Shown here one piece after another: positions 47,797-49,699 of a stretch of 64,000 nt of DNA. Location of the stretch: NCBI GenBank assembly GCA_001899145.1, contig MKVF01000018.1:682001-746000 (forward strand). The letters run 5' to 3'. The notes beneath the pieces are model-generated. The model worked only from the letters and a program-made list of their open reading frames with translations, ran no database searches and was not told the origin of the DNA. Positions within the stretch are counted from its first letter, which is position 1. The number at the start of each line of letters is the position of its first letter. The position numbers and the translations under genes were made by a program. The stretch is from Flavobacteriia bacterium 40-80 (lineage in GTDB: Bacteria > Bacteroidota > Bacteroidia > Flavobacteriales_D > Crocinitomicaceae).

Positions 47797-48426
47797 TTAA
47801 AGTTCAACATCAAGGTTAAATATTTTTTGTAAAGTAATGAGATTGATATTCTTTTTGGCTAATTGTTCAAACCGGTCTTTTCCTGTCAGGGAACGAATCA
47901 TTTCATCATGATTTTCAACAATTTTCACTTCCAGTGTTATTCCCCAGTTGTTTAATTTAGAGCGGAGGAACTGAACCAGCTCATCGCCAAAATTATTCAT
48001 CATAAGCTCGTGCATTACGAGGTTATCCACTTCGTATAATACATGCAGATCGTCTAATTTCGGATCTTTCTTGGTCATGATGCTGAATACCGTTTCCGCA
48101 CCACTTTTTTCCAGTCGTTTTATTTCATAGGCAAACGAACGCCATTGCATTTTTAGCTGGTCATGCGTAAAAGGAGTCCGTGGTTTCTGAGAAATATCTT
48201 CAGTAGAAACTTTTGCCTGCTCTATCGTTTTCCGCTTTAATTCTTCTATTGAAAGGATTTCTGAATTGAGCTGGCCTGTTGGAGCAGATAATACTTTTGC
48301 TTCTTTCTTTAATGAAAAATTAGCCGAAGGAGAGGCCGGACTGGTTGTTGCAGGTGTTTTTTTGACATTGTCCCGGAGTGATTGCCCCGGATAATCGATG
48401 ATCTTTACCGGATCAGTCAGTCGTTT
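47797..48426 (-). CDS. dnaX: dnaX tau-type C-terminal extension in -1 frame
   Basis: This frame continues without a stop from the A10 run to 47797 (about 209 residues). It starts RLTDPVKIIDYPG right after the run, then has a Pro/Ser/Ala-rich linker. Its C-terminus has WRSFAYEIKRLEKSGAETVF, then DELVQFLRSKLNNWGITLEV and a TLQKIFNLDVEL end. This is the normal C-terminus of full-length Bacteroidota DnaX (tau), needed for contact with the polymerase and helicase. The ATG-initiated ORF at 48150 is only part of it and is not a separate gene. Confidence 0.85.
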   Translation of the reverse strand, partial: KRLTDPVKIIDYPGQSLRDNVKKTPATTSPASPSANFSLKKEAKVLSAPTGQLNSEILSIEELKRKTIEQAKVSTEDISQKPRTPFTHDQLKMQWRSFAYEIKRLEKSGAETVFSIMTKKDPKLDDLHVLYEVDNLVMHELMMNNFGDELVQFLRSKLNNWGITLEVKIVENHDEMIRSLTGKDRFEQLAKKNINLITLQKIFNLDVEL

Positions 48427-49532
48427 TTTTTTTCAAGCTCCGATTTAACCGAACTTATCTGCATCAACGCTAATTCCACTAACAGACGCTGGTTCTTAGA
48501 GGATTTATAATCTACGTCCGCTTTACTCAGCACGCCAAGACAGCGTAAAATATAGCTGGCATCCAATAATTTTGCCTGTTCGATAAAACGTTGCTCGATT
48601 GTTTCGCTGACTTCTAATAATTTTGCTGTGCGAACATCTTTGCAAATCAGCAGGTTCCTGTAATGCCCGGAAAGACCTACAATAAAATTATGCCCGTCAA
48701 AACCTTTTTCAATAATGTCATTGAAAAGCAGCAATACGGCAGGAATATCCTCTTTGTAAGCACTTTCGACTATTTTAAAGAAATAATCGTAATCAAGTAC
48801 GTTCAGATTTTCCAGTACAGCGTTCAGTGTGATCGTATTTCCGGCAAAGCTTACGATCTGGTCAAAAATAGACAAAGCATCACGAAGCGCCCCGTCCGCT
48901 TTTTGAGCGATTAGGTGAAGCGCGTCAGGATCAGCAGTAATACCTTCTTTTACGGCGATCTGTGCCAGGTGATCAGAGATATCTTTTACCTTGATTCTGT
49001 TGAAGTCAAAAATCTGACAACGGGACAGAATCGTTGGAATAATTTTGTGTTTTTCGGTTGTTGCGAGTATGAAGATCGCGTGTGCAGGCGGCTCTTCAAG
49101 CGTTTTAAGAAATGCGTTGAATGCCTGTGTGGACAGCATGTGTACCTCGTCGATGATATACACTTTATGTGTTCCAAGCTGAGGTGCGATACGTACCTGA
49201 TCGATCAGATTACGAATGTCATCTACGGAGTTGTTAGATGCAGCGTCCAGCTCATATACATTCAAAGAAGCTCCTTCGTTGAACGATTTACATGACTCGC
49301 ATTGGTCACATCCTTCAATCTGTTCTGTTCTGTTCGTACAGTTGATCGTTTTTGCGAGAATACGTGCAGTTGTCGTTTTTCCCACACCACGGGAACCACA
49401 GAAAAGAAATGCCTGCGCGAGATGATTGTTTTTTATTGCATTTTTTAACGTAGAAGTAATGGACTTTTGTCCCACGACAGTATCGAAGGTCTGCGGTCTG
49501 TATTTACGTGCCGATACAATAAAATCTTCCAT
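48417..49532 (-). CDS. dnaX: DNA polymerase III subunit gamma/tau (dnaX), gamma-length product
   Basis: A clamp-loader ATPase of 371 residues in the zero frame. Walker A GSRGVGKTT at 46-54, four zinc-type Cys (INC, CDQCESC, near 65-82), DEVHM (near 125), sensor 1 ATTEKHK and SRC. The collar domain follows to residue 368. The frame ends EKKND at TGA immediately after ten A residues. The tau C-terminus continues in the -1 frame to 47797, so a 578-residue tau needs slippage. The promoter box lies 6 bases upstream of the start. Confidence 0.9.
   Translation of the reverse strand: MEDFIVSARKYRPQTFDTVVGQKSITSTLKNAIKNNHLAQAFLFCGSRGVGKTTTARILAKTINCTNRTEQIEGCDQCESCKSFNEGASLNVYELDAASNNSVDDIRNLIDQVRIAPQLGTHKVYIIDEVHMLSTQAFNAFLKTLEEPPAHAIFILATTEKHKIIPTILSRCQIFDFNRIKVKDISDHLAQIAVKEGITADPDALHLIAQKADGALRDALSIFDQIVSFAGNTITLNAVLENLNVLDYDYFFKIVESAYKEDIPAVLLLFNDIIEKGFDGHNFIVGLSGHYRNLLICKDVRTAKLLEVSETIEQRFIEQAKLLDASYILRCLGVLSKADVDYKSSKNQRLLVELALMQISSVKSELEKKND
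48424..48441 (-). promoter_or_regulatory. dnaX slippery site: A10 run with GGAG and downstream hairpin
   Basis: On the reverse strand ten A residues (48433-48424) precede CGAC. GGAG, Shine-Dalgarno-like, lies 4 bases upstream (48441-48438). A weak 5-bp hairpin (TGATC/GATCA, 48415-48399) starts 8 bases after the run. These are the elements used by the E. coli dnaX -1 frameshift, or the A run alone for transcriptional slippage as in Thermus. Confidence 0.7.
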
Positions 49533-49545: not shown

Positions 49546-49621
49546 CAAAACTATATTCGATTTTGCTATATTTTTTGATTCGAAGATTGATAAAATTAAA
49601 AGATTTGAAAATTAGAAAATA

Positions 49622-49672
49622 GAAGATTAAAAATTAATGCAGTGAATTCACATTCTGCAATTTTTAATCTTC
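49622..49672. repeat. Long AT-rich inverted repeat between dnaX and the aminotransferase gene
   Basis: GAAGATTAAAAATT at 49622-49635 is matched by its exact complement at 49659-49672 (14-bp arms). A further TGCAG/CTGCA pair lies inside, with a two-base bulge. Downstream of the aminotransferase stop (49700) it could act as terminator; the following bases on that strand are only partly T-rich. Confidence 0.6.
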
Positions 49673-49699
49673 CAAATCTTCTCAATTCTCAATTTCTGA

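Follow-up and report, generated by a model that had tools for sequence, protein, structure and literature searches.

An A10 run and an upstream hairpin in a split dnaX gene: probable RNA polymerase slippage as the source of gamma and tau

The dnaX gene of Flavobacteriia bacterium 40-80 is divided between two frames that part at a run of ten A residues, which raises the question of how a gene interrupted in this way could supply the cell with both gamma and tau. The locus lies in a 64,000-nucleotide stretch of genomic DNA (hereafter the window), and a first interpretation made from its letters (the sequence-only reading) had proposed that slippage on the A run is programmed and yields both products. 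That proposal stands as the best reading, and the comparative data favor a specific form of it: with a probability of about three in four, judging from sequence comparisons, gamma and tau arise through hairpin-assisted slippage of RNA polymerase on the A10 run.

The frame junction and its conservation

On the minus strand, the junction reads GAGCTTG-A10-CGACTGACTGATCC (Table 1). From the ATG at 49532, the genome (zero) frame encodes gamma and is closed by a TGA separated from the run by four bases; the sequence-only reading was right about this stop but had placed it 10 bases after the run, whereas it begins 5 bases past the last A. Its other statements about the frames held on direct reading: the split at the A10 run with the tau part in the -1 frame, the openness of that frame down to a TAA at 47797, and product sizes of 371 residues for gamma and 578 for the joined tau that results if one A is added to the run. 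The clamp-loader domains reside in the first ORF, in which the Pfam DNA_pol3_gamma3 (domain III) match extends to residue 367, whose codon contains the start of the run. The gamma ORF matches positions 1-368 of the NCBIfam model PRK14971 with 679.8 bits, just under the 685-bit whole-protein cut-off, and the tau-part ORF, in which no Pfam family was matched, covers positions 435-613 of the 614 in this model. That each ORF alone falls below the whole-protein cut-off is expected of the halves of one protein.

Table 1. Coordinates of the dnaX features in the window.
Feature	Position	Strand	Remarks
gamma, the genome-frame dnaX ORF	48417..49532	-	371 aa; Pfam DNA_pol3_delta2, DNAX_ATPase_lid, DNA_pol3_gamma3
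A10 slippage run	48424..48433	-	Direct read; A9-A13 run in 226/254 distinct loci
RNA hairpin immediately 5' of A10	48434..48457	-	7 bp touching the first A, plus one inner pair
TGA closing gamma in the genome frame	48417..48419	-	Direct read; all 88 gamma-default family loci have a zero-frame stop at most 6 codons from the run
tau-specific C-terminal ORF (linker and C-terminal domain), -1 frame	47797..48426	-	Open to TAA at 47797

Upstream of the gene, an AT-rich inverted repeat was seen by eye at about 49575-49690 of the window, between dnaX and an aminotransferase gene.

Runs of this kind are rare in this DNA. A10 occurs once in the window, compared to 5.06 expected from shuffles, and the whole 3.52-Mb genome contains four places with at least ten A or T. 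Two of the other three lie within open ORFs and one (A12) lies close to an ORF start, so that none of them visibly breaks a frame.

Conservation was assessed in 254 distinct dnaX loci, including the one in the window, after five duplicates had been dropped; the 28 loci without a run of at least 9 A were left out of run-based counts. The family sample covered 200 genomes of 24 genera, from which 85 distinct loci were read (30 family loci taken first as the top matches, then 60 more hand-picked among the matches listed). A set of named loci comprised the best 80 of 592. "Family" denotes group f1 together with seven named loci (L035-L041), each of which either duplicates an f1 locus or is placed among the f1 loci by the tree. 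From a phylum sample of 296 genomes, the loci of all 70 class members and of those belonging to the family or the order were read, along with those of 17 out of 223 more distant genomes that stood highest in the table.

The sequence-only reading had looked to relatives for a check, and what they contain is the A run with the same two frames rather than an uninterrupted dnaX without it. Of 93 family loci (85 distinct sampled loci, the window's own and the seven named), 90 have the tau part open in the -1 frame, and in most family loci tblastn matches it in frame 2. In the remaining three, tau lies in the genome frame in two (L036 and L155, both A11) and in the +1 frame in one (L167, A9). In 92 of the 93, the tau frame stays open for at least 100 codons or until the contig ends; L119, one of the 90 with the -1 relation, has only 71 open codons. 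This relation is retained in 14 of the 16 family loci with A11, where the extra A must therefore have come by substitution beside the run and not by insertion. Codons were counted in 91 of the 93 family loci (without L039 and L040), minus L159 and L162, in which the run is shifted by 3 and 6 nt; K368 and K369 are both encoded by AAA in all 89 of these standard-geometry loci, with 66.6 expected.

Individual family members deviate in other ways. L036 and its near relative L122 (tree distance about 0.01) carry A11 and A10, respectively, so that one A turns the default product from gamma to tau; these are draft assemblies, and an error is possible. In L165 (genome G003), an in-frame TAA at codon 261 lies inside the gamma part, with a run and tau frame that look intact.

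A hairpin directly upstream of the run

The RNA immediately 5' of the A10 run can fold into a hairpin of -6.9 kcal/mol (shuffle z of -2.44; 4 of 200 shuffles as good). To compare loci, the best hairpin abutting the run was computed for each row and set against synonymous shuffles. In 24 family rows, consisting of one per f1 genus and the seven named loci, with a few genera represented more than once, the mean energy was -4.85 compared to -1.91 for shuffles, the best of 20 shuffled group means being -2.82. Outside the family, each genus contributed one row, as did each record that gives no genus. The 72 tau-default rows, in which the genome frame encodes tau, averaged -5.76 (shuffles -3.97, best -4.45), and the 26 gamma-default rows averaged -4.95 (shuffles -3.85), which is not beyond the best of 20 shuffles at -5.0. 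A hairpin 5' of the run thus exceeds synonymous shuffles in two of the three groups. Not every locus conforms, since 4 of 24 family, 33 of 72 tau-default and 12 of 26 gamma-default rows fail to rank with the best quarter of the shuffles made from them, and 50 of 226 loci lack a run-abutting hairpin of -3 kcal/mol or better. The hairpin ends at the run or a few bases from it, and a positional energy profile is strongest at the run, although downstream windows in this profile are shorter close to the run, which lowers their energies. When 105 columns of a 23-row family alignment (L036 left out) were submitted to RNAalifold, the 5' stem was the sole structure predicted.

The stem also shows covariation in the family. 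In the 23-row alignment, 92.2% of its cells are paired, and the covariation score is 0.360 (versus 0.234; none of 500 shuffles as high, and slid versions of the stem at 0.130 or below), whereas further pair types and pairs changed on both sides were not above shuffles in these rows (379 and 500 of 500). When the 86 distinct rows were used, none of 1000 shuffles matched the paired cells or the both-side changes, and pair types were not above shuffles (639 of 1000). It is important to note that shuffle tests of covariation are inflated by relatedness; a tree-based sign test found four independent pairs on supported branches and, with a median p of 0.125, lacked power. In Flavobacteriaceae, where the stem has 8 bp in many loci and a few paired changes, one row per genus was hardly beyond shuffles (share paired, 34 of 1000 as high; both-side changes, 264 of 1000), a weakness attributable to a stem that hardly varies there.

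The only pair that varies on both sides links two third codon positions, so that covariation is seen between synonymous sites. Among rows with Gln at residue 364, all 15 with U at codon 361 use CAA and all 13 with C use CAG; in 6 of the 34 Gln rows, codon 361 has A or G and the pair is not formed. Over all family rows, the pair is formed in 73 of 93 and unpaired in 20 of 93. A neighboring position behaves similarly: codon 365 is GAG in 80 of 89 family loci, compared to 20.9 expected, with a G capable of pairing to either U or C at codon 360; when A replaces this G, 8 of 10 distinct rows have U opposite. This codon had been read as part of a Shine-Dalgarno (SD)-like element. The GGAG indeed ends 4 bases before the run, as the sequence-only reading stated, but a stimulatory role of the E. 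coli type, together with a downstream hairpin, is not supported; the GGAG sits in the 3' arm of another, conserved hairpin upstream of the run. Codon 365 fits that arm, and it may have an SD role as well. A second strong synonymous constraint in the gene lies at codon 129 (49146-49148, minus strand), the Glu of an IIDEVH motif; GAG is used there in 87 of 89 family loci, with 20.9 expected.

A conserved downstream stimulatory hairpin was considered for the family and rejected, as single-sequence folding gave a mean z of -0.05, no better than shuffles, and none appeared in the RNAalifold alignment. The single sequence of the window does allow the downstream hairpin described in the sequence-only reading (z of -1.5), but this hairpin is absent from the family consensus.

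Polymerase slippage and its alternatives

A simple model would have RNA polymerase slip on the A10 run and produce a mixture of mRNAs that differ in their number of A residues. Faithful A10 mRNA would be translated to a stop just past domain III, giving gamma of 371 residues; mRNA with 11 A (or 8 or 14) would join the second ORF and give tau of 578 residues; and other lengths would also terminate at once and give gamma-like products. The nascent-RNA hairpin just upstream of the run has the geometry of an intrinsic terminator, a hairpin followed by a one-base hybrid of 9-10 bp, and would promote slippage. The sequences themselves show the run, the frames, their conservation, the closure of the unused frames, and the conservation and covariation of the hairpin; slippage by the polymerase instead of the ribosome, an effect of the hairpin on the polymerase, and synthesis of both products at any ratio are inferred from them.

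The frames that tau does not use bear on which machine slips. Because polymerase slippage makes several run lengths, every frame but that of tau should end at once under this model; -1 ribosomal frameshifting requires closure of the -1 frame only. At the locus in the window, both non-tau frames stop near the run. Among the 83 tau-default loci outside the family, a stop is found within 6 codons in the -1 frame of 82 and in the +1 frame of 67. Taken one per genus or record (n = 72), the -1 frame is closed within 6 codons in 71, the +1 frame in 58 and both in 58, whereas a control drawn from the same linkers closes both in a mean of 8.6 and a maximum of 18 over 2000 draws. In gamma-default loci, the third frame also stops within 6 codons, in 87 of 88 cases in the family and in 44 of 53 elsewhere.

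Programmed -1 ribosomal frameshifting on A AAA AAA or A AAA AAC, through which tau would come from faithful A10 mRNA, is an unlikely alternative that nonetheless has several observations in its favor. Both heptamers are contained in the run (A AAA AAG is not, as C follows the run), and the 30 best of 39 tRNAs include no tRNA-Lys other than tRNA-Lys(UUU). For gamma-default loci, the -1 frame carries the tau part in 87 of 88 within the family and in 51 of 53 outside it. The 16 nt upstream of the run are enriched in SD-like 4-mers in all three groups (28/93 versus 8.1, 31/50 versus 4.0 and 35/83 versus 8.1), albeit within the hairpin arm, to which enrichment the preference for GAG at codon 365 may be added. 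Frameshifting at prfB with an SD-like element is common in Bacteroidia, being described for 523 of 726 genomes by authors who suggest that the anti-SD may come free at a paused ribosome (PMC8710568), and a reversed arrangement relative to E. coli dnaX, with suspected -1 frameshifting, is described for Chlorobium phaeobacteroides (PMC5009743). Finally, tau-default loci outside the family fold slightly better downstream than control windows (z of -0.53 versus -0.10, 45 loci per group); the corresponding values for gamma-default others are -0.37 and -0.36.

Several features do not agree with this alternative. The family lacks the downstream structure, both in single-sequence folding and in its consensus. 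SD sequences are described as not recognized by Bacteroidia ribosomes (PMC9976891), and Flavobacterium johnsoniae as poor in frameshifting at prfB (PMC12421855). The position of the 5' hairpin would be covered by a slipping ribosome. Ribosomal frameshifting also leaves unexplained the closure of the +1 frame and the three gamma-default loci in which tau is in the +1 frame (L167, L102 and L211), features that slippage by RNA polymerase would accommodate.

That polymerase slippage and ribosome sliding on the A run both contribute to tau is improbable, albeit in keeping with a sequence prone to either, with the SD-like enrichment and with the sliding of ribosomes along poly-A lysine stretches (PMC4363877).

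Still less credible is DNA phase variation, in which replication slippage would toggle between gamma-only and tau genotypes. A 10-base homopolymer inside a coding frame invites this explanation, as do the occurrence of both default states within three genera and the single A that distinguishes L036 from L122. On the other hand, 90 of 93 family loci retain the -1 relation, among them 14 of the 16 with A11, most A11 runs having reached this length by substitution, and a hairpin and closed frames would be unnecessary for a genetic switch. dnaX is, moreover, essential in well-studied bacteria.

An assembly or sequencing error, or a decayed gene, can be set aside, for although the genome is a draft in 32 contigs and homopolymers are error-prone, the same split recurs in the 90 family loci, among them the one-contig genomes G095, G058 and G069, the tau frame remains open in 92 of 93, and no frame is visibly broken at the other long A/T places of the genome. 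On these sequence grounds, error is excluded for the dnaX split here and refuted as a general explanation; single-base doubts persist for the exceptions L036, L155 and L167.

Breadth in Bacteroidota and comparison with known systems

At the scale of the phylum, a run of 9-13 A occupies this site in 226 of the 254 distinct loci, whereas its place, codon phase and default product vary. It is present in 66 of the 70 class members of the phylum sample, with the genome frame giving gamma in 33 and tau in 33, and absent in all three loci named Bacteroidaceae and in 10 of the 17 more distant loci. Gamma is the default in group f1 (85 of 86 loci), genus g30 of f6 (17 of 17), f5 (6 of 6) and f8 (7 of 7); tau is the default in f4 (10 of 10) and in 11 of the 12 other f6 loci. 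On a quick single-gene tree of 184 rows, which carries long-branch warnings, the default product switches at least 16 times, and supported branches alone require at least 8 changes of the gamma label. The balance of this evidence tilts toward the view that, in much of the Bacteroidia, a terminator-like slippage module is built into an essential replication gene. The module would consist of a nascent-RNA hairpin and, after it, a run of hybrid length, and the default would have flipped many times while the module was retained. On the same reading, the genome frame would be nearly free to drift, since the mRNA pool holds both frames.

Other arrangements were seen in Bacteroidales loci without an A run. 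In two uncultured members (L098, 2788-2790; L112, 3599-3601), gamma ends at an in-frame TAG and tau continues in the same frame; the stretch past the TAG is alike in both and, by eye, could form a small hairpin, as in a possible case of stop readthrough. One exact pattern for this variant was found in 0 of 395 class genomes. In L089 (3650-3652), the zero frame stops after 383 codons and tau lies in another frame.

Judging from the survey, the production of both gamma and tau may well be an old trait of Bacteroidia. In practical terms, gene callers may report truncated or split dnaX genes in Bacteroidota genomes that are sound. The choice between polymerase and ribosome is directly testable, for example in Flavobacterium johnsoniae, whose ribosomes are reported to be blind to SD sequences.

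Among known systems, the closest is the set of 17 two-ORF dnaX genes described by Antonov et al. (2013; PMC3711429), of which 12 have A7-A10 at the junction, nine of them A10, and for which transcriptional realignment was proposed. Here as there, the N- and C-terminal parts lie in two adjacent ORFs, gamma is in the genome frame, tau is in the -1 frame and poly-A forms the junction. The remark in the sequence-only reading that no report existed for this lineage accordingly needs care, as the two-ORF A10 type was already in print. The 5' hairpin, the repeated flipping and a Bacteroidota-wide survey are not part of that work as described. A search of open-license literature, mostly titles and the starts of abstracts, found no report of a hairpin 5' of the dnaX run or of repeated default flips; within that scope, both features would be new.

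In E. coli, dnaX uses a -1 ribosomal frameshift at A AAA AAG with an SD-like element and a 3' stem-loop (PMC3711429, PMC5009743). In both cases one gene with an A-rich site encodes gamma and tau; in the present locus, in contrast, the roles of the frames are reversed, the AAG heptamer is missing and no 3' stem-loop is conserved in the family. The reversed arrangement is described as seemingly present in many fewer bacteria than that of E. coli, with one base being able to reverse the roles (PMC5009743). The dnaX gene of Thermus thermophilus, with transcriptional slippage on A9 (Larsen et al. 2000, described in PMC1088944 and PMC5009743), shares a run of at least 9 A (A9-A10), the coding of gamma and tau, and the closure of both non-tau frames near the run. 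In Thermus, tau is in the genome frame, as in the 83 tau-default loci outside the family, whereas the locus in the window has gamma there; the descriptions of Thermus dnaX in these two sources mention no 5' hairpin, which is predicted here. A hairpin in this position has a precedent in the IS630-type transposase of Roseiflexus, where slippage is enabled by a stem-loop lying immediately 5' of its site (Penno et al. 2015, described in PMC5009743). The two systems have this stem-loop in common but differ in that Roseiflexus slips on U5C5, in one direction and in a mobile element, whereas dnaX has an A run in a housekeeping gene and a hairpin that looks weaker. With the described hairpin example belonging to a mobile element, dnaX of Bacteroidia would offer a cellular case of hairpin-assisted RNA polymerase slippage.
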